From NCBI GenBank assembly GCA_025358205.1, contig JANYKG010000123.1, forward strand, positions 1-34,338: 34,338 nt of DNA. Reading direction: 5' to 3'. Of the stretch, positions 12,779 to 25,468 are shown piece by piece. Made by a program: the position numbers and the translations under genes. Every line of letters starts with the position of its first letter. The first letter of the stretch is position 1. The notes under the pieces are model-generated. The model ran no database searches, was not told the origin of the DNA, and saw nothing but the letters and a program-made list of their open reading frames with translations. This DNA comes from Armatimonadota bacterium (GTDB lineage Bacteria > Armatimonadota > UBA5829 > DTJY01).

Positions 12779-12844
12779 TAAGGTGTGCTTGGCTCGGAAC
12801 TTTCCACGGGGCCGATCCGTATATGGAAGCGGTAGGAGAGGACA

Positions 12845-13423
12845 ATGGCGGATTACACTGACACTGCAACCGCGGTGTGCGAAAACGAAGACAGGAAGAT
12901 GTTTGACGATCTGGTAAGTCGTTACCATCGGCAGATATACAATGTCGCATACAGGATGGCTGGCAACGCCGCGGACGCGGAGGATCTGACACAGGAAACC
13001 TTCGTGAAAGCGTTCCGGTTCTTCCATCGGTATAAGCGTGACATGCCGTTTGACAACTGGCTCTACCGGATAATGTCGAACCTGCACGTTGATATGATCC
13101 GCCGTCGGCCTAAGGCGCACATCCGGTCTCTCGACGAGCCGCTCCAGTTTCAGGAGGGTGAGGCTCAGATGGAGATTAGGGATGAGTCCGAAGGCCCCGA
13201 GGACCTGGCGCTTTCCGGCGAGCTTGACTCGGAGATGCAGAAGGTGCTGAATACACTGTCTAAAGATTTCCGCATGACGGTGATTCTCTCGGATATCGAA
13301 GGCCTGTCCTACGAAGAAGTTAGCGAGGCAATGGGCTGCTCAATAGGGACTGTGCGGTCCCGTCTCCACAGGGGCAGAAGGCTCCTGCGTGAGAAACTGA
13401 AACCATATCTGGAGCGGTCCTAG
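12845..13423 (+). CDS. ECF-family RNA polymerase sigma factor
   Basis: The 192-residue protein has sigma70 region 2 (about 20-90: DLVSRYHRQIYNVAYRM, NAADAEDLTQETFVKAF, FDNWLYRIMSNLHVDMIRR) and region 4 (about 130-185: LSYEEVSEAMGCSIGTVRSRLHRGR), joined by an acidic linker, as in the RpoE/SigW group. Regions 1 and 3 are absent, as expected. ATG follows AGGAGAGGACA. The next gene is its likely zinc-binding anti-sigma factor and the third is a Deg-type protease, the standard layout of an envelope-stress switch. The gap to the anti-sigma gene contains a palindromic repeat. Confidence 0.93.
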   Translation: MADYTDTATAVCENEDRKMFDDLVSRYHRQIYNVAYRMAGNAADAEDLTQETFVKAFRFFHRYKRDMPFDNWLYRIMSNLHVDMIRRRPKAHIRSLDEPLQFQEGEAQMEIRDESEGPEDLALSGELDSEMQKVLNTLSKDFRMTVILSDIEGLSYEEVSEAMGCSIGTVRSRLHRGRRLLREKLKPYLERS

Positions 13424-13433
13424 CCTGTAGAAT

Positions 13434-13490
13434 GCAGGGAATTCTGATCATTATCCACGAAGCGCGCGAATAATGCTCAAAAGGCCCTGC
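13434..13490. repeat. Twin-hairpin palindromic repeat, copy 1 (single core hairpin)
   Basis: Outer arms GCAGGG (13434-13439) and CCCTGC (13485-13490) enclose the inner arms CATTATCCACG and CGCGAATAATG, with the linker TCAAAAGGC as in the other copies (TCAGAAGGC). The element ends five bases before the SD of the anti-sigma gene. The second hairpin of the family is missing here. Confidence 0.8.
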
Positions 13491-13506
13491 GTCGGAGGTA
13501 AGTGCA

Positions 13507-14058
13507 ATGAATTGCAGCAAAGTTCAGAGTCTCATTTCGGCATATGTGGATTGCGAGCTTCCAGGCGTTGAGATGCTTGCGTTGAGAGATCACTTGAGGG
13601 ATTGCCCTGATTGCAGCGCGGAGCACGACTACACGCTCAAGGTGAAGCGCGCGTTTGGCGGGTTGCGTCCCACCGTGCCGCCGCCGGGTCTGGCAGATCG
13701 TATCATTTCTCGAATAGACCAGGCATCCCACGCATCGCAGGAGAACGGGTTGGCGAATTGGCGAAAGCGTTTGACCGTGTTTCCCGGGCAGTTGAGATTC
13801 GTCGCCGCCACAATGGGCGTGTTTGCCATGCTGCTGACATTGAGGGGCGGACAGCTTTACCCGACAATTCCGTTCCCGCAGAACGAGCAGGTGGCCAGCA
13901 TCAGCGATGCTGATCCGGGCCGCATGTTCCCCGCAACGTCCGGCGTAAAGTACGGGCATCTGGTGATGGCGCCATCGCCGTCGCCAATCGAGTCGTGGTC
14001 GGTTTCGAGCCGATCGGGCGGGGGCATGATGCCGGCCGGGTACTCAATGCCCAGATAG
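13507..14058 (+). CDS. Zinc-binding anti-sigma factor, membrane-anchored
   Basis: The 183-residue protein opens with a ZAS-type zinc-finger domain: C3, then H29-x3-C33-x2-C36 in RDHLRDCPDCSAEH. This is the sigma-binding fold of anti-sigma factors. A single membrane segment lies at about 96-112 (LRFVAATMGVFAMLLTL), followed by about 70 periplasmic residues rich in Pro, Ser, Met and Gly with no recognisable sensor. ATG has GGAGGT eight bases upstream. It lies 83 bp after the sigma gene. It should hold the sigma factor at the membrane until released, perhaps by proteolysis of this protein. The pairing is inferred from gene order and the zinc motif. Confidence 0.85.
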   Translation: MNCSKVQSLISAYVDCELPGVEMLALRDHLRDCPDCSAEHDYTLKVKRAFGGLRPTVPPPGLADRIISRIDQASHASQENGLANWRKRLTVFPGQLRFVAATMGVFAMLLTLRGGQLYPTIPFPQNEQVASISDADPGRMFPATSGVKYGHLVMAPSPSPIESWSVSSRSGGGMMPAGYSMPR

Positions 14059-14186
14059 TTTCCGCCGCCGCCTGAACCATACCGGGTTTCCCGGCGTCTA
14101 ACTCATGACATCGTAATGCAGACCATTTCGCCGCTGAAAAAGCAGGCAAATTCACCAGTATCTTACTGGAAAGGAGCGTATGGAAA

Positions 14187-15659
14187 TTGCAGGTTAAGAC
14201 ACAAAGAAAACCAACCAGAGTCCTGTTGGCGCTGATCCTCATGATGTCGCTGTACACATCGCTGGCGCCGGTGCATTCGGCTGAACAGAAGCCGGTACCG
14301 GTCAAACCCGCAGCCATCTCGGCCCTTCATGATTTGGAGGACGCGTTCACCTCCATTTCAGATACAGTGTTGCCCTCGGTGGTCAGCATCATGAGCAAGC
14401 GGACTGTTGAGAGCCAAGTGTCCGGCATGCCGAACGATCTTCCGTTTCCGTTCAGCGCGCCCCCACAACAGGCGCCTCAGAAGCATCAGGAAGTAGGCTA
14501 CGGCACCGGTGTGATAGTGAGGGCTAACGGTTACATTCTGACTAACGACCATGTGGCAGGCGGAGCGGACAAGGTGACCGTTAAGCTGGGCGATGGCCGC
14601 GAGTTTGAAGGCAAGGTATCCCGCGATACAAAGAGCGATTTAGCGATAGTGAAGATTGATGCCACCGGTCTGCCTGCCGCGAAACTTGGCGATTCGGCCA
14701 AAGTGAGAGTTGGGCAGTGGGCAATTGCCATGGGAAGCCCGTTTGCACTTGACCGAACCGTTACTGTGGGTGTCATCAGCGCCACGCAGCGTGAGGAAGT
14801 GGCCGGGGACGGAGCCGAGACGCGGTTCTACCCGAATCTTATCCAGACGGACGCGTCCATCAACCCGGGTAACAGCGGCGGTCCGCTGGTGAATATTGAT
14901 GGGGAAATAATAGGCATCAACACCCTGATCCGATCCGGTGGCAATCCCATGATGGGTTCCAGCGGAAATATCGGCATCGGGTTTGCAATCCCCGTGAACA
15001 CAGCGAAGTTCGTTCTCGATCAGCTAATCACGCACGGCAAAGTTACGCGCGGATTCCTGGGGCTGACTCCGGTTGACCTGACGCCCAAAATGCAGGACGA
15101 GTATGGCGTGAAGGCCGGAGCGCTCGTCAAGAGTGTGGAAGTGGGAGGCCCGGCGGACAAGGGCAAGGTCCAGGTAGAGGACATCATTACTGTGTTTGAC
15201 GGCAAGAAGATCGGCACACAGCTTGACCTGAGAGATGCCATCATGTCCACCGCACCCGGCAAGAAGGTTTCGGTGGTTGTGATGCGCGATAAGAAGGAAC
15301 AGACGCTCAACGTGATTGTCGGCGAAGCGCCTGAGACCGTTGCGTCCGGTGATACCAGTAGCACGGCATCGGATGAGAAGATGGGATTCAGCGTGGCGGA
15401 CATCACTCCTGCGGCAGTGCAGCAGTTCAAGTTGGATGAAGGCGCGAAGGGCGTGGTTGTGACTGATGTTAATCCGGATAGCCCTGCGGGTATGGAGGGT
15501 CTTGCTCCGGGCACAGTGATTACCGCGTTGAACGGCGCACCGATGAAGAACGCCGCTACGTTTGAATCCGCCACGAAGGATCTGAAGCCGGGGGACTACG
15601 TTAGGTTGTCAGTGGCCACGAAGGAACGGAAGGGCGTGATAGCGTTCACCCTGGAGTAA
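14187..15659 (+). CDS. HtrA/DegQ-type serine protease with two PDZ domains
   Basis: The 490-residue S1C protease has a signal peptide or anchor at 10-31, a trypsin-like domain with catalytic H122 (TNDHVAGG), D151 (KSDLAIVKID) and S230 (NPGNSGGPL), and two PDZ domains at about 285-375 and 395-488. It degrades or chaperones misfolded envelope proteins. TTG at 14187 lies ten bases after AAGGAG. An ATG at 14180 is closer to that SD but stops after five codons, so the TTG is the likely start, perhaps with a short overlapping reading frame. It follows the anti-sigma gene by 128 bp. It is probably part of the same regulon and may be the protease or an output of the stress response. Confidence 0.92.
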   Translation: MQVKTQRKPTRVLLALILMMSLYTSLAPVHSAEQKPVPVKPAAISALHDLEDAFTSISDTVLPSVVSIMSKRTVESQVSGMPNDLPFPFSAPPQQAPQKHQEVGYGTGVIVRANGYILTNDHVAGGADKVTVKLGDGREFEGKVSRDTKSDLAIVKIDATGLPAAKLGDSAKVRVGQWAIAMGSPFALDRTVTVGVISATQREEVAGDGAETRFYPNLIQTDASINPGNSGGPLVNIDGEIIGINTLIRSGGNPMMGSSGNIGIGFAIPVNTAKFVLDQLITHGKVTRGFLGLTPVDLTPKMQDEYGVKAGALVKSVEVGGPADKGKVQVEDIITVFDGKKIGTQLDLRDAIMSTAPGKKVSVVVMRDKKEQTLNVIVGEAPETVASGDTSSTASDEKMGFSVADITPAAVQQFKLDEGAKGVVVTDVNPDSPAGMEGLAPGTVITALNGAPMKNAATFESATKDLKPGDYVRLSVATKERKGVIAFTLE

Positions 15660-18536: not shown

Positions 18537-19667
18537 TTATCGGCCTGCGCGTCTGCTGAGCTTGAAGACCAGCACTTCCAAGTGCAGCCTGGGCGAACCG
18601 GCGCTGTCGCCGATGCCCTTGCAGGCGAGTTCACACGTTAGGATATCCCGCAACGCCTGCTCCAGTTCGTTCTGGGTGAACGACTCTGCCTGTTGCGCCA
18701 GCTTACCCAATTGCCAGTCAGACATCGCAAGCGGGTTCAGCTTTCCGTCGTCCGGCAGCAGTTCCAGCAGATGCTCAGGCACGTTTCCGAGATTACGGAC
18801 GCCCTGCGAACGAAGGAACTTCACTTGCAGCATCATGCGAAAGTGCTTCGCCAGCATGGACAGGAGCTTCAGCACCTCGCTGTCAATCTTGGTGACAGCC
18901 GCCAGGGTTTCGTTCAGCAGGTCAATCGCCTTGTCCGCTCGCCGCGCGCCCAGAGCGTCAATCAGCGGGAACGTGCGCTCTTCGGGTGACTTGATAATAA
19001 CCTCATCCACATCATCGAGTGTGATTCTGTCTCTGTCGCCAATGTAGGTTGCCAGCTTCATAACCTCAGTTGGCACGGATGCGGGATTCGAGGCGAGCGA
19101 GTACGAGAGGCTCTGAAGCGCGGGTGGGTCAATCTTCTTGCCGGTGGTCTGCACTGCTTTTGCGACCATGCTAGATAAGGTCTCCGTCTTCATTTTTGCA
19201 AAGTCCACGACCTTGCCGTGTGCGGTTACCGCCTTCTTGATTTCAGGCTGCAGACCTTTCTTCCGTTTCTTTGCCGTGCCGTCTTCCGCCTCATCATCGT
19301 CTTTCGCCTTGCCACGCGCGCTCGCGGCGTCTTCGCTGGTGGTCATAATCAGGCAGCTCATAGGCCCCATCTTGGGAATGAATGCGGCGACAAGTACCTG
19401 ATCAGCAGGGGCTAGTCGGTCAATGCGGCTGACCACTACCACCTTCTTCTCGGATGAAAGCGGCAGCGTCATTACCGCGCCGATTATGCCTTCTGCGGAC
19501 GCGTCATCACCCTCGAATCTGGATAGGTCAAACATCTCGCTGCCCGAATCAACTTTATCGGCGATCAGTTTGCCGACCTCAGCGTCACGCCGCGAGTCCA
19601 CCTGTCCGGTGAAGAGATGTACGTCTCGTGTCTGTGTTTCTTTCTTCTTTGCTGGGGCTGGTGTCAT
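18537..19667 (-). CDS. holA: DNA polymerase III, delta subunit
   Basis: This 376-residue protein matches the clamp-loader subunit delta that opens the sliding clamp. Visible parts are the N-terminal HLFTGQVDSRRDAEV with FDLSRFEGDDAS, the KKVVVVSRIDRL strand, the domain 2 region EVMKLATYIGDRDRITLDDVDEVI, and the C-terminal helical collar with LLSMLAKHFRMMLQVK and LREVLTCELACKGIG-like helix. A highly charged insert at about 112-145 (KAKDDDEAEDGTAKKRKKG) is unusual and probably a flexible loop. Its ATG overlaps the transglutaminase stop (ATGA). A replication gene in a MoxR/DUF58 operon is odd and probably reflects neighbourhood rather than function. Confidence 0.85.
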   Translation of the reverse strand: MTPAPAKKKETQTRDVHLFTGQVDSRRDAEVGKLIADKVDSGSEMFDLSRFEGDDASAEGIIGAVMTLPLSSEKKVVVVSRIDRLAPADQVLVAAFIPKMGPMSCLIMTTSEDAASARGKAKDDDEAEDGTAKKRKKGLQPEIKKAVTAHGKVVDFAKMKTETLSSMVAKAVQTTGKKIDPPALQSLSYSLASNPASVPTEVMKLATYIGDRDRITLDDVDEVIIKSPEERTFPLIDALGARRADKAIDLLNETLAAVTKIDSEVLKLLSMLAKHFRMMLQVKFLRSQGVRNLGNVPEHLLELLPDDGKLNPLAMSDWQLGKLAQQAESFTQNELEQALRDILTCELACKGIGDSAGSPRLHLEVLVFKLSRRAGR

Positions 19668-21811
19668 GAAGTTCCGTTCTGCGGCAGCAGGTTAGCCTTT
19701 CTGGCGGTTTTCAGGATTCGCCCTATCTCATTTATGGTTTGCGCCATGGCTGCCACTCTATCCGCCGATGGTTCGCGCGGTGAATATCTGAATTCTACAA
19801 GATCGGCGGTCACCGCGTCTACTGCCGCAGACAATTCTTTCAGATCCGCACCCATGTTTATGGTGACTTGATCGGCGAACTCGATGGGAGTTGTGGACGG
19901 TTTCTTCGGATAACCGACTCTGGCCAGCAGATCGCACATTCGCCGATAGTGTCTTGATATCTCAGCGGTGACGGCATCCTGAGGCGATGGGCGCCGCGCG
20001 TGCCTGAGACTTATCAGCCTATCAACCACTTCGCTCTTGATGAGATAAGCGATCAGCGCCAGGATGATGATGGAGAAGGAGAGCGTAGTGCGGTCAGCCA
20101 CAAACAGACCCCACAATTCGCGAAGTCTTGATAGCGGGCCAGCCTGTTCGCCTGATGGCGTGGCATCAAACTCCACCCAACCATATCCTGGGAAGTAAAG
20201 CTCCGCCCAGGCGTGGCGGTCTTTTGCGAGTACATGGTACAAGCCGTCCTCGGCGGGTGCGTCTTCCGGTGCAAATCCGGTGACCCACCTGGCGGGAATG
20301 CCAATCTGCCGCGCCATAATCACCATTGAACTTGCGAAGATGTCGCAGTAACCCCGCTTTGATTTGAAGAGGAAGAATGTGATGGCGTCCTCATTAGCAG
20401 GAGCGGCGCCTGCGCCGGTATCGTAAGTGTAGCTCTGTGCAAGGTAGTTGCGTATTGCGAGGGCCTTGCGATAGGGATTCGGCTCGTTGGTGGTTATACG
20501 CTCTGCCAGCCGCTGTGATTGCCAGGATGAATCCGGGATGCCCAGATATCGGGACTTGATGAGTTCAGGGTAATTCTGACCGGCGGCGCTGAGCTGTCGC
20601 AGCGTGGCTGTGCTGACTCTGGATGTAGCTGTGTATGTTGACTTGGGGCCGTATGCCGATGGCGACTCAATCCGGCTGCCGTATCGCAGAACGGGCACCC
20701 AGTTGCCGTAGCGACGGATGGGTTGGGTTGCTCTGAACTTAATACTGAGTGGTTGTGCCGCCGCGAACACCGTGTGATAGTAGCCGCTTACCACTGTGAA
20801 TGTCTGCTCCACGCGCCGTGTGGCTTTCCCTGTCTCGTAGAGTGGACTAGCAGGCAGACGGAACGTGCTGCGTGAGGTCGGCTTGTAGGGACCTTTTGGG
20901 TTCTCCATCGGGCGTAACCGCTTCTGCTCATTCGGCCCCAATTCGGTGACCCAACCCTGGCCAGTATACTTGTTATAAGTTCTCCCACGCCACAGCAGCG
21001 GCTGATCACATTTCACTGTCATGAGTTCCTGGTTGCTTAGATTGACCGGGCCGGTAGCCACAGAAACATACTCTTCGCCGACCAACTGCTCTACAATCTG
21101 GCTGGAGCTAAATGGCGATAGCGGTCGGGCAAACGAGTTCACCAGTATTGGGTATAGAAGGGTGCCAAGGGCGATTCCCACAACCATAGCGGCCAGTGTG
21201 ACGCTTGCGGTGAGACCAATGTGTATCTTGGCGTTACCTGCCGAAATCCTCAGTCGTCCGATGGTTCCGGGGGAATCCGACTGGTACGCCAGCGCGTTTT
21301 CTTTTATAAGTATGAAGGATCCAAGCGTAAGAAACAGCCCGAAGTAGATCAATGCTTCCGTGTCCGGTGCAAACGTGGCGGTCAGACCAATCAGACTGAG
21401 CGCCGGGACGCACATGAAGAGCACGGCGCGATCGTATGAAAGACGGAAGCTGCACGCCACCATCAGCCAGACCAGCATGGTGCCCATAAACATATCAGAA
21501 GTCTGCGTGACCTGATCCGGCAGCATGGCAGAGCGGGAGTTTGGCATGGCCAGCACTGTCGCGAGAAGGATCAAGAGCATTGCCAGAACTATTGCTTCTG
21601 ATCCGGACTTCTTCAACAGCCCCGCGCGCACGGCATAACTGACGCAGAAGCCGATGAAGACCAGCCCTATCGCGGCCAGCATGAAGCCATTGTTGACCAC
21701 CACCGTATTGAAGCACGCCAAACCCAGCGCGCTGGCGGCAAACGCTGCGGCATAGAATGCGGTGCGCTCTCGCATCTCAGGCTTTATGCAGATGTTACGT
21801 AGAGTAGTCAT
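19664..21811 (-). CDS. Membrane transglutaminase-like protein, TgpA type
   Basis: The 715-residue protein has about six to seven membrane segments in the first 230 residues (DUF3488-like), an extracytoplasmic transglutaminase-like core, another membrane segment at about 590-615 (LSFSIIILALIAYLI) and a cytoplasmic C-terminal DUF4129-like tail. The catalytic Cys, His and Asp are visible in KRGYCDIFASS, DRHAWAELYFPGYG and WVEFDATP. This layout is known from TgpA-family proteins, which usually sit beside MoxR and DUF58 genes, as here. ATG at 21811 overlaps the DUF58 gene by 17 bases; a second ATG at 21775 has no better SD. The substrate is unknown; a cell-envelope protease or crosslinking role is likely. 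Confidence 0.88.
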   Translation of the reverse strand: MTTLRNICIKPEMRERTAFYAAAFAASALGLACFNTVVVNNGFMLAAIGLVFIGFCVSYAVRAGLLKKSGSEAIVLAMLLILLATVLAMPNSRSAMLPDQVTQTSDMFMGTMLVWLMVACSFRLSYDRAVLFMCVPALSLIGLTATFAPDTEALIYFGLFLTLGSFILIKENALAYQSDSPGTIGRLRISAGNAKIHIGLTASVTLAAMVVGIALGTLLYPILVNSFARPLSPFSSSQIVEQLVGEEYVSVATGPVNLSNQELMTVKCDQPLLWRGRTYNKYTGQGWVTELGPNEQKRLRPMENPKGPYKPTSRSTFRLPASPLYETGKATRRVEQTFTVVSGYYHTVFAAAQPLSIKFRATQPIRRYGNWVPVLRYGSRIESPSAYGPKSTYTATSRVSTATLRQLSAAGQNYPELIKSRYLGIPDSSWQSQRLAERITTNEPNPYRKALAIRNYLAQSYTYDTGAGAAPANEDAITFFLFKSKRGYCDIFASSMVIMARQIGIPARWVTGFAPEDAPAEDGLYHVLAKDRHAWAELYFPGYGWVEFDATPSGEQAGPLSRLRELWGLFVADRTTLSFSIIILALIAYLIKSEVVDRLISLRHARRPSPQDAVTAEISRHYRRMCDLLARVGYPKKPSTTPIEFADQVTINMGADLKELSAAVDAVTADLVEFRYSPREPSADRVAAMAQTINEIGRILKTARKANLLPQNGTS

Positions 21812-22997
21812 ACTTCACTCGACCTTCGATGGACTTGGCGGAGCACTCTACCACGGTTACTCTCATGCCTGATACCAACAACCTTGAATCCAGGAGATCG
21901 TCTTGCCTGCCGATTCCTTCTCCGATGTCCAGCGCCACCATATGTAACTCTACACCCTTGGGTGAGAGCATCTGAGCGACGGCAGACAGGTTTTTGTCAA
22001 TTTTTGAGCTTATGCAGATCACCTCAGAGTCTCTGGCGACGGTATCCATCCGGCTTGTCAGTAGGTCAGAGAGCGATTCCGAATGATCTGCCTTCAGCCT
22101 TGCGAGGGAATCCAGGATGGCGTAGAGTTGGTGAAGCCCTGTGGCTGAGAACGATGACTGGCCTTCTACTCCGCTGCAGAGAAGCCTTGCCGCACTGCCC
22201 ATGCCTATCGCACGTTCCGCGATCCCGGCGGCGATCCTGATGGAATACTCAAGCGATGAGTACCGGCCTGGGTGAACCTCTGAATCGCGTGAGAGGTCAA
22301 TGGCGATGATCGTGTCCTGTGCGCGGCGATGCTCGAACTCGATGACGTTCAGCCGCCCGTGGCGCGCGGTGGACGGCCAGTGGACGCGCCGGAGTTCGTC
22401 ACCGTGTTGGTACTCTCGCACGCCGTGAAAGTCCGTGCCGCCGCCTCTGACGCCGCTGCCCTCATACTGATACTCGCCAAAGCTTCCCGCTCCACCGGTG
22501 CGCAACTCGGCGACCTCCAGGGGTTTCGGTAGGACGACCATTCGGTTGAATAGAGGATACTCGCAGGTGAACATGAAGAAACCCAGCGGGTCGGATACTC
22601 TGACCTTCAGCGGCCCCAGCGTGAAATCCCCCCGGTTGTTGGCGGATGCGGTGTACGTAACGGAAGCATCATCGGTTTCCTGGTTCTGCGATAGGCGTTC
22701 TTCGTTCATGCTGAAGAACTCGGGGAGTACGTCGTGTACCTCCATCGGACCTAGCATGCCGCTGTTTCCGTGAACGCGGATGATGATGCTGATCGGCTCA
22801 TCCTCACGGGCGTACTCGGGAGCCTCGCGGGTGCAGCGCAGATTCTTGACTGAGTACCGACCTACGATGTATGAGGCTATGGGCAGACAGGCTACGGCAG
22901 CCGACATGATGTACAGCTCGCCAAACCGCAGAATTGCGGAAACCACGAGCAGGAAAAGCGCCGCTACTGCAACTGTTATTAGCTTCATCGAGGACAA
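21795..22997 (-). CDS. DUF58 domain protein (vWA-like), membrane-anchored
   Basis: The 400-residue protein has two membrane segments at about 5-50 (AVAALFLLVVSAIL and MSAAVACLPIASYI), a beta-rich linker and the DUF58 signature GSGVRGGGTDFHGVREYQHGDELRRVHW followed by a vWA-like region with IIAIDLSRDSE. DUF58 proteins are encoded with MoxR ATPases and are thought to be their targets, as adaptors or metal-binding partners. The TTG at 22997 has GAGGTG seven bases upstream; the ATG three codons later is 16 bases away from it, so TTG is preferred. It lies between the MoxR and transglutaminase genes. Confidence 0.87.
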   Translation of the reverse strand: MSSMKLITVAVAALFLLVVSAILRFGELYIMSAAVACLPIASYIVGRYSVKNLRCTREAPEYAREDEPISIIIRVHGNSGMLGPMEVHDVLPEFFSMNEERLSQNQETDDASVTYTASANNRGDFTLGPLKVRVSDPLGFFMFTCEYPLFNRMVVLPKPLEVAELRTGGAGSFGEYQYEGSGVRGGGTDFHGVREYQHGDELRRVHWPSTARHGRLNVIEFEHRRAQDTIIAIDLSRDSEVHPGRYSSLEYSIRIAAGIAERAIGMGSAARLLCSGVEGQSSFSATGLHQLYAILDSLARLKADHSESLSDLLTSRMDTVARDSEVICISSKIDKNLSAVAQMLSPKGVELHMVALDIGEGIGRQDDLLDSRLLVSGMRVTVVECSAKSIEGRVKYDYST

Positions 22998-23025: not shown

Positions 23026-23976
23026 TTAGCACGGCACCGCGACCGAGTCCATGATCTCTGTGACAACCGTTCTCGGCGTGATGTTCTTGATCCTGGCCTC
23101 AGGCTTCAAGATCAGCCTGTGCGCCAGTACCGGTACAGTCAGCGCCTTCACGTCGTCAGGCATTACGTAGTCGCGTCCGCTGATGGCAGCGTATGACCGG
23201 GCCGCGTGTGAGAGGTTCAGCGAACCCCTGGGGCTGGCTCCGAGCGTGACCATTGGGTGCGTCCGCGTGGTCGCCGTCAGCTCCACTATGTAGTCGCGGA
23301 TGGCCGGAGCCATATGAATGCCCTGTGCGGCCTTCTGGAGTTCCACTATCTCCTCCAGCGTGAGAATTGTGCGAACCCCGGCCAGAGGGTGAATGCCCGT
23401 CTGACTGTCCAGTATGCGCGATTCTTCGGCGGATTCGGGATAGCCCATTGAGAGCCGGATCATGAACCGGTCGAGTTGCGCTTCCGGCAGCGGATAGGTG
23501 CCGTGGCTCTCGATGGTGTTTTCGGTGGCGATCACGAAGAACGGCGCGGGCAGGGGATAGGTCATGCCGTCCGCGGTCACCTGACGCTCTTCCATGCACT
23601 CCAGGAGGCTGGATTGGGTCTTCGGCGTCGCACGGTTGATCTCGTCCGCCAGCACAAACTGAGCGAATATCGGGCCGCGCCGGAACTCGAACTCCGAGGT
23701 TTTCTGGTTGAATATGGATGTGCCGGTCACGTCCGAAGGAAGCAGATCGGGCGTGAACTGTATGCGCTTGAACGAACAGCCCAGTGCTTTTGCGAGCGAC
23801 TTTGCCAGTGTGGTCTTGCCCACGCCCGGCACGTCGTCAATGAGGATATGGCCGTTTGACACGATGGACGTCAGCGCCATTCGGATGATATCCCGTTTGC
23901 CGATGATGACGGTCTCCACCTCATCAATCACCTGGTTGATTTTGCCTTGGATTTCCGCGAAGTCGGTAGTAGTCAT
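23026..23976 (-). CDS. MoxR-family AAA+ ATPase
   Basis: The 316-residue ATPase has Walker A GVGKTTLAKS (about 51-60), Walker B FVLADEINRA (about 107-116), the sensor region FFVIATENTIESHGTYPLPEAQLDRFMIRL and the C-terminal lid with GASPRGSLNLSHAARSYAAI, all hallmarks of MoxR proteins. They act as chaperone-like remodelling motors for vWA-containing partners. The start at 23976 follows AAGGGG about 12 bases upstream, rather distant. It opens the operon, with the promoter at 24019-24047. The expected partner is the DUF58 protein next to it. Confidence 0.93.
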   Translation of the reverse strand: MTTTDFAEIQGKINQVIDEVETVIIGKRDIIRMALTSIVSNGHILIDDVPGVGKTTLAKSLAKALGCSFKRIQFTPDLLPSDVTGTSIFNQKTSEFEFRRGPIFAQFVLADEINRATPKTQSSLLECMEERQVTADGMTYPLPAPFFVIATENTIESHGTYPLPEAQLDRFMIRLSMGYPESAEESRILDSQTGIHPLAGVRTILTLEEIVELQKAAQGIHMAPAIRDYIVELTATTRTHPMVTLGASPRGSLNLSHAARSYAAISGRDYVMPDDVKALTVPVLAHRLILKPEARIKNITPRTVVTEIMDSVAVPC

Positions 23977-24018: not shown

Positions 24019-24047
24019 ACTCTATCATCGGCGCTGATGTGTGTCAA
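24019..24047 (-). promoter_or_regulatory. Promoter of the MoxR operon
   Basis: On the minus strand TTGACA (24047-24042), 17 bp, TAGAGT (24024-24019) with a TGA extension directly before the -10. It is 22 bp downstream of repeat element A. Confidence 0.65.
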
Positions 24048-24069: not shown

Positions 24070-24131
24070 ACGTATATGACTGCTTTTGGGCGAAGTAAGT
24101 TTCGTGTTTGATGGGGTATTGATGGGTAATC
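24070..24131 (-). repeat. 62-bp repeat element, copy A (upstream of the MoxR promoter)
   Basis: Read on the minus strand it contains ATTACCCA, ACGAAACTTACTT and GCAGTCATA. It matches copy B (25142-25203) at 48 of 62 positions without gaps, and ends 10 bp after the stop of the pentapeptide gene. It could be a regulator-binding region, an RNA element or a relic of a duplication. Confidence 0.65.
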
Positions 24132-24140
24132 GGTGGATTG

Positions 24141-25055
24141 TCAGCGTGCGGCGCTATCCTTGACTGCATCTAGCACATTGGATCCGCTCTTGCTGGAATT
24201 GTGCAGATCAGACGTGAACAGGTCGGTGGCGCCTGATGCGGCGGTATCCAGGTATGTATGTGTTAGGCTCGCATCTGTCAACGCCGCGCCCGTCAGGTCG
24301 GCACCGCGCAGTCGTGCCCCGGTCAAGTTAGCGCGGCCAAGGTTAGCGTTTCTCAGGTCGGCTCCCACAAGGAAGGCCCCCCTGAGATCCGCGGCGGTCA
24401 GGTCTGCGCCCGTCAGCTTGGCATGCCCCATGTTGGCGTTTCTCAGATCGGCGCCGCGCAGCTTCACATCACGCATATTGGCGTGCCACAGACTGCAGTA
24501 CATCAGGAACGCACCGCTCAGATCGGCATCTGTCAGGTTGGCTCCGTTAAGCTCTGCACCGCCCAGTTGCGTACCGACTGATTCCGCGCATCCCAGTCTG
24601 GCGCCTCTCAGGTTGGCACCCTCTAGATTGGCATCATACAGCTCGGCGCCTCTCAGTTGTGCGCCGTGCATGTCGGCACCGTGCATAGTGGTACCTTTCA
24701 GATACGCGTCGCTCAGGCTGGTTCCGCTTAGGTCAGCGCTAGTCAGGTTAGCGTTGCTCAGATCGGCACCATCCAGGTTGGCATTAGTGAGGTCAGCACC
24801 AGTGAGTTCGGCGTCTCTCAGATGGGCGCTGTGCAGGTCGGCATTTTTCAGGTCGGCGTCGTCCAATCTGAGGTGTTTTCTCAGGGCACTCGCCACAGCG
24901 GACCTTACTGTCTTGCCGGAGCAAATAACGGCGCCGGTTCGCCGATTCTTCACCTCCACCCGAGTGTGTGACCTGGTGTAGAGCGTGAAGCTGGTATAGA
25001 CCGTGAAGCTCGTAATTGCGGCTATGCCGAGTATGAGAAACGTAGTGAGTTTCAA
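24141..25055 (-). CDS. Membrane-anchored pentapeptide-repeat protein
   Basis: The 304-residue protein has an N-terminal anchor (about 4-22, TTFLILGIAAITSFTVYTSF), a short linker with RVEVKNRRTGAVIC, a helix SAVASALRKHLRLDD, and then about 38 tandem A(D/N)Lxx units up to about residue 270. Pentapeptide repeats form a right-handed square beta-helix. The unit is the classical A(D/N)LXX with central Leu, and Cys occurs only twice or so. I prefer TTG at 25055, which has AAGGAG ten bases upstream; the open frame begins at 25094. Large pentapeptide proteins include DNA-gyrase mimics, but most have no known role. It is flanked by two copies of a 62-bp element, and no other gene is near. Confidence 0.85.
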   Translation of the reverse strand: MKLTTFLILGIAAITSFTVYTSFTLYTRSHTRVEVKNRRTGAVICSGKTVRSAVASALRKHLRLDDADLKNADLHSAHLRDAELTGADLTNANLDGADLSNANLTSADLSGTSLSDAYLKGTTMHGADMHGAQLRGAELYDANLEGANLRGARLGCAESVGTQLGGAELNGANLTDADLSGAFLMYCSLWHANMRDVKLRGADLRNANMGHAKLTGADLTAADLRGAFLVGADLRNANLGRANLTGARLRGADLTGAALTDASLTHTYLDTAASGATDLFTSDLHNSSKSGSNVLDAVKDSAAR

Positions 25056-25141
25056 CGTGTAGTTGCTCCTTCCCACAGATATTAAGTGCGCCACGAAATG
25101 TCAGCATTCCTCCCGTGCAGCTGTCAGTGCGATTGGCAACC

Positions 25142-25203
25142 ACATCTATGACTGCTCTGGCGCTAAGTAAGTTTCGTATTCCAAGCGGTATTCGTGGGTA
25201 ATT
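25142..25203 (-). repeat. 62-bp repeat element, copy B (upstream of the pentapeptide gene)
   Basis: Same orientation as copy A, with the same conserved blocks ATTACCCA, ACGAAACTTACTT and GCAGTCATA. It lies about 87 bp upstream of the TTG start. I found no convincing promoter between it and the gene; CTGACA-N17-TATCTG near 25085-25107 is weak. Confidence 0.65.
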
Positions 25204-25241
25204 GAAGGAAAGGGCACCGGCTCGGACGAAAGATAAGGGAA

Positions 25242-25411
25242 CCACTCCAGTGCGGATCTCGGAGTGCGGAGCCGCTCAAATGCGGAATGCGGATTTCGGA
25301 TTGCGGAGTGATCGGAGTTAGTTCACGTATCACTCATCACTTATCAATGCAATGGGAGAGAGTATGAGTACGAGCCACTCCAGTTCGGATTGCGGAGTTC
25401 GGAGTGCGGAA
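25242..25411. repeat. Low-complexity degenerate repeats built on (T/G)CGGA(A/G)T
   Basis: Blocks such as CGGAGTGCGGAGC, TGCGGAATGCGGATTTCGG and TCGGAGTGCGGAATG recur with little spacing. A second set at 25375-25411 begins with the same CCACTCCAGT as at 25242-25251. It lies in the 413-bp gap between the pentapeptide gene and the mannosidase gene, and I see no gene in that gap. Its sequence would give no stable reading frame. The role is unknown; degeneration of a tandem array is the simplest reading. Confidence 0.55.
25323..25346 (-). repeat. 24-bp repeat, copy 1 (inverted relative to copy 2)
   Basis: This is an exact reverse complement of 33698-33721. The core reads CACTCATCAC. The other copy has an additional downstream partner that makes a hairpin (33746-33757); this one has none. 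It is a small dispersed repeat and not a coding sequence. Confidence 0.7.
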
Positions 25412-25468
25412 TGACCATCTGACCATAAGACCATTCGATCATCGTCACGCGGGAAAGAGAGTAAGAGT

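Follow-up and report, generated by a model that had tools for sequence, protein, structure and literature searches.

The question raised by this locus is why the window, by which we mean the whole stretch of 34,338 nucleotides that was analysed, carries the same 62-bp element ahead of two different minus-strand genes. Copy A (24,070-24,131, minus strand) lies upstream of an operon headed by a MoxR-family gene, just past the stop codon of a gene for a pentapeptide-repeat protein, and copy B (25,142-25,203, minus strand) lies upstream of that pentapeptide gene. Our recount agrees with the original prediction that the two copies are identical at 48 of 62 ungapped positions, share one orientation and read towards minus-strand genes. 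The differences are 6 transitions and 8 transversions, the pair appears as family D4 in a repeat search of the window (76% over 68 nt), and a match of this quality is expected anywhere in the window with P ~3e-7 (ungapped-score statistics against a first-order Markov sequence). The boundaries of the repeat are rather sharp at 62 bp. Read on the minus strand, both copies contain ACGAAACTTACTT-9-GCAGTCATA. The conserved blocks named in the original prediction are present in both copies, but the idea that they are set apart by variable stretches has less support than stated there, because mismatches within the 62 bp are not significantly clustered (permutation p = 0.40 for the longest run and 0.22 for run lengths) and their pattern cannot be distinguished from random scatter. 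Between copy B and an alpha-mannosidase-like gene, positions 25,239-25,412 hold imperfect repeats of another kind, TGCGGAGT/TGCGGAAT/TTCGGATT (families D5 and D6).

The operon behind copy A comprises genes for a MoxR-family AAA+ ATPase (23,026-23,976, minus; Pfam AAA_3 7.8e-65 and AAA_lid_2), a DUF58 protein (21,795-22,997, minus; Pfam DUF58), and a transglutaminase-like membrane protein with DUF4129 (19,664-21,811, minus; Pfam Transglut_core and DUF4129), after which come a DNA polymerase III delta subunit-like protein and an M17 aminopeptidase. The operon is kept in relatives, and its gene order and Pfam domains are the same as in known MoxR-DUF58-transglutaminase clusters; what distinguishes the present locus from these is the ECF-like (extracytoplasmic-function sigma) promoter predicted ahead of the operon and the pentapeptide gene with its copy of that promoter. 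The operon also has a sigma-A-like promoter with sigma70-like hexamers, TTGACA-17-TAGAGT (24,019-24,047, minus), 22 bp downstream of copy A, exactly where the original prediction had placed a promoter, and the same two hexamers with the same spacer length occur upstream of MoxR in two genomes of the same family (G002 and G004). The pentapeptide gene (24,141-25,055, minus; Pfam Pentapeptide 1.4e-57) encodes a protein with an N-terminal hydrophobic segment, as judged from the translation, and likely starts at a TTG after AAGGAG, with a longer GTG start possible at 25,094.

What could act from both copies? The two right-hand blocks of the repeat are, most likely, the predicted -35 and -10 elements of an ECF sigma factor promoter, a type linked to cell-envelope stress. 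In copy A the core spans 24,075-24,103 (minus), with GAAAC at 24,099-24,103, 18 bp, and GTCATA at 24,075-24,080, and in copy B it spans 25,147-25,175 (minus), with GAAAC at 25,171-25,175, again 18 bp, and GTCATA at 25,147-25,152. Thus, both copies have the AAC core of an ECF -35 element as well as a -10 of the form GT(C/A/T), in this case GTCATA, within the published distance of 18-19 bp from GGAAC, and both lie shortly upstream of a gene and read into it: the end of GTCATA is 98 nt from the MoxR ATG and about 91 nt from the likely TTG of the pentapeptide gene. A regular expression for ECF promoters, composed before the sequences were inspected, matched copies A and B and the upstream region of MoxR in G003, a genome of the same family.

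The core resembles promoters of several well-studied ECF sigma factors, none of them identical to it. As described in PMC10012870 and PMC8103513, E. coli RpoE (sigma-E) promoters have a -35 of GGAAC (PMC10012870) or, more fully, GGAACTT (PMC8103513) and a -10 of GTC in which the C is required; the repeat is like them in both elements but has GAAACTT and GTCATA, its host is an unrelated bacterium, and its promoter is a predicted one. PMC10012870 also gives GGAAC-N18-19-GTT for C. glutamicum sigma-E, so that the Corynebacterium/mycobacterial sigma-E promoters share the -35 type and the spacer with the repeat and differ in having GTT where the repeat has GTC. B. subtilis SigW has a -35 of ATTGAAACCTTT (PMC8103513), within which GAAAC is found as in the repeat.

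Support for the ECF reading comes from relatives. Upstream of orthologous MoxR genes and on the right strand, G[GA]AAC-N16-20-GTCA is present in 5 of the 10 class genomes, counting the genome of the repeat and four others (G000, G003, G018, G020, and G024), far above shuffled sequences (mean 0.11; 0 of 5000 shuffles reach 5), a form of the motif that was widened to a 16-20 bp spacer and to GTCA after a first look at three matches. Across 30 MoxR loci of the near set, namely those of the 54 matching genomes for which the locus was given, the less specific G[GA]AAC-N16-20-GTC occurs in 6 (shuffle mean 1.2; 1 of 1000 reach 6), the GTCANA form in 4 (shuffle mean 0.06; 0 of 1000 reach 4), and G[GA]AAC-N16-20-GTCA on the wrong strand in none. 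A scan of 300 bp upstream of MoxR in G018, G020, and G024 picked up no sigma-A-like promoter. The GTCA form is absent from 16 additional MoxR loci in the class, of which 5 are second copies and 11 come from genomes that lack a close orthologue, and G[GA]AAC-N17-19-GTCA is absent from all 79 usable MoxR loci, of 80, in distant phyla. Several observations speak against the ECF reading or limit its reach. Upstream of MoxR, the core is missing from the other five of the ten class genomes, among them the two with the best-matching housekeeping promoter; the relatives have GGAAC where the repeat has GAAAC; and the core by itself fails to account for the left 27 bp common to both copies.

The left part of copy A (ATTACCCA..AATACC.C.T, 24,104-24,130, minus), which runs to the -35, is common only to copy B, and its block ATTACCCA was not seen in the orthologous MoxR promoters of relatives. 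The expectation that the blocks persist in orthologous promoters was therefore borne out in part: the left block is missing, and the two right-hand blocks are kept in 5 of 10 class genomes. In the bacterium's own genome (4,075,679 bases, or 4.08 Mb, in 200 contigs), BLAST returned the whole element as copies A and B only; further copies were found neither with the two right-hand blocks at up to 3 mismatches nor with a sequence-only profile built from the two copies. The genome search proposed in the original prediction thus gave an element restricted to this locus rather than many random copies. The whole element was likewise not found in 60 relatives by similarity search or sequence profile, and weak profile matches in six other genomes (E 0.09-0.83) are taken as chance. 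Because the similarity extends over 62 bp, well past the 29-bp promoter core, and is found only here, the simplest origin is that the MoxR promoter was duplicated locally. No close homologue of the pentapeptide protein was found in four genomes of the same family (weak partial matches in G003 only), nor was its gene found next to MoxR in relatives, which fits a recent arrival. We therefore favour, with a probability of roughly 0.62, the reading that each copy holds an ECF-type promoter and that copy A, the promoter of the MoxR operon, was locally duplicated so that the pentapeptide gene shares its control. The original prediction had offered common control of the pentapeptide gene and the MoxR module or, alternatively, duplication; our reading embraces both, by way of an ECF-type promoter whose core recurs in half of the ten class genomes.

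In mechanistic terms, copy A would serve the MoxR-DUF58-transglutaminase operon as a distal, inducible promoter, ahead of the nearer housekeeping promoter, and copy B, derived from the duplicated MoxR promoter region, would be the promoter of the pentapeptide gene, giving the newly arrived gene the same control. An ECF sigma factor released under stress would start transcription about 5-9 nt past GTCATA, reading the MoxR operon from copy A and the pentapeptide gene from copy B. The motif suggests that the MoxR operon and the pentapeptide gene may be under common ECF-type control and perhaps are switched on together; under this proposal, we would expect an RNA polymerase carrying an ECF sigma to initiate at these sites, envelope stress to be the signal, both genes to respond together, and the duplication to have run from MoxR to the pentapeptide gene. 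In our literature search, which did not cover most subscription literature, we found no paper describing a MoxR-DUF58-transglutaminase operon as controlled by an ECF sigma factor.

Among other explanations, the one that survives best, although we consider it unlikely, is that the full 62 bp serve as a multi-site operator at which a DNA-binding regulator controls both genes from upstream of ordinary promoters, for example a response regulator on 11-bp repeats such as ATTACCCATCA/ATACCCCATCA in copy A. The original prediction had viewed the element as a multi-site operator or structured RNA, and the operator is retained here as a rival to a single ECF-type promoter, as which the blocks read better. 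An operator would account for the left block common to both copies and for the distance of 22 bp between copy A and the sigma-A-like -35 downstream of it; however, the 11-bp repeat of copy A is barely kept in copy B, the MoxR promoters of relatives lack the left block, the genome has no further copy, and there is no good sigma-A promoter behind copy B (the best matches at 8 of 12 positions). Somewhat less probable still is that the repeat is a plain scar of local duplication or insertion around the pentapeptide gene with no regulatory role of its own. Two direct copies flanking a single lineage-specific gene, with mismatches that show no significant clustering, are what such a scar would leave, yet the ends are rather sharp at 62 bp, the copies have the same orientation and each lies about 90 nt before a gene start, and the core recurs upstream of MoxR in relatives. 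A structured RNA or mobile-element end (riboswitch-like leader, attC-like site, or MITE), whose one point in favour is the look of blocks and spacers, is very improbable, and readings of this kind (structured RNA, attC, transposon) were set aside because fold, Rfam, inverted-symmetry, copy-number, and viral-contig results are all against them: minus-strand fold z-scores of -0.57 and +1.27 indicate no stable fold, no Rfam match lies within the window, no inverted repeat crosses the element, there are two copies per genome rather than many, and the two right-hand blocks have no exact match in viral contigs.

Returning to the ECF-type promoter, the genome offers many sigma factors that could drive it, with 36 matches to ECF-type sigma region 4, of which 35 are above the cut-off. 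A candidate is encoded in the window at 12,845-13,423 (plus; Pfam Sigma70_r2 and r4_2, with SigE/SigW/RpoE-like models below cut-off). Its gene is followed consecutively, within 12,845-15,659, by a zinc-finger anti-sigma-like gene (13,507-14,058, plus; Pfam zf-HC2 8.4e-11) and a gene for an HtrA/Deg-type PDZ serine protease (14,187-15,659, plus; Pfam Trypsin_2 and PDZ; TIGR02037 405.9 bits, below the cut-off of 416.2). In G001, a genome of the same family, a relative of this protease (36% identity) divergently adjoins MoxR (L120, 2737-5380). The window's ECF gene has a likely autopromoter, GGAAC-17-CGTA (12,796-12,821, plus), and the same form with a spacer of 17 or 18 bp is present in all 23 orthologue loci scanned, of 30 returned (the 7 left out being more distant or fragmentary), making it a clean motif for defining the regulon of this factor. 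The autopromoter shares the -35 type and a similar spacing with the repeat, but its -10 is CGTA where the repeat has AGTC; the window's ECF is therefore a candidate only. CGTA is also the -10 of SigW promoters; this form belongs to the autopromoter and not to the repeat. An ECF sigma gene usually, though not always, has an autopromoter of the type that its product recognises. Among the bacterium's own ECF genes, of which 30 of 36 were scanned, no convincing matching autopromoter was found: GAAAC-N16-19-GTC occurs in 3 of 30 upstream regions, against a shuffle mean of 0.6 and maximum of 3.

The core may mark further genes as a possible regulon. GRAAC-N17-19-GTCATA has 19 sites in the bacterium's own genome compared with 12 for a reversed control; summed over 28 genomes, its sites are not in excess (276 versus 308). 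Position says more than number: 17 of 100 core-motif sites in 8 genomes are promoter-like, that is, outside open reading frames and at most 200 bp from a gene start, compared with 4.9% of positions drawn at random from the same loci; the 100 sites were read out of 107, the omitted 7 being sites of G002 that resemble those of G004. Because permuted motifs gave 5 promoter-like sites of 60, this support for a regulon is modest. Copy B itself scored as not promoter-like owing to a spurious 151-aa open reading frame that covers it. Several genes behind core-motif sites start with signal-peptide-like or membrane segments, as judged by eye, and they include a BrkB-like membrane protein, a clostripain-family protein, and a BamB-like beta-propeller. 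At about position 1500 of locus L219 (G000:C70:16796-16825), GGAACTT-14-GCAGTCATA, with 19 bp from GGAAC to GTC and with the GCAGTCATA that is also in the repeat, lies 64 nt ahead of the gene for a 308-aa protein without Pfam match. We raise tentatively, as a possibility that falls short of an even chance, that an ECF envelope-stress regulon of the class with promoters of the form GGAAC-18/19-GTCATA runs the MoxR-DUF58-transglutaminase operon together with exported proteins, and that one lineage added a membrane-anchored pentapeptide protein to it by copying the 62-bp promoter. If so, this would be growth of a regulon through promoter copying, caught soon after the event.

ECF promoters of this kind are well known, and the pairing of the MoxR operon with the pentapeptide gene is a small, local novelty. 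If the proposed reading is correct, it would provide a concrete motif for a regulon search and a clear case in which a new gene enters a regulon through a copy of its neighbour's promoter, and it would link MoxR-DUF58-transglutaminase, an envelope module that is widespread but poorly understood, to a stress sigma factor of the ECF type in a little-studied lineage.
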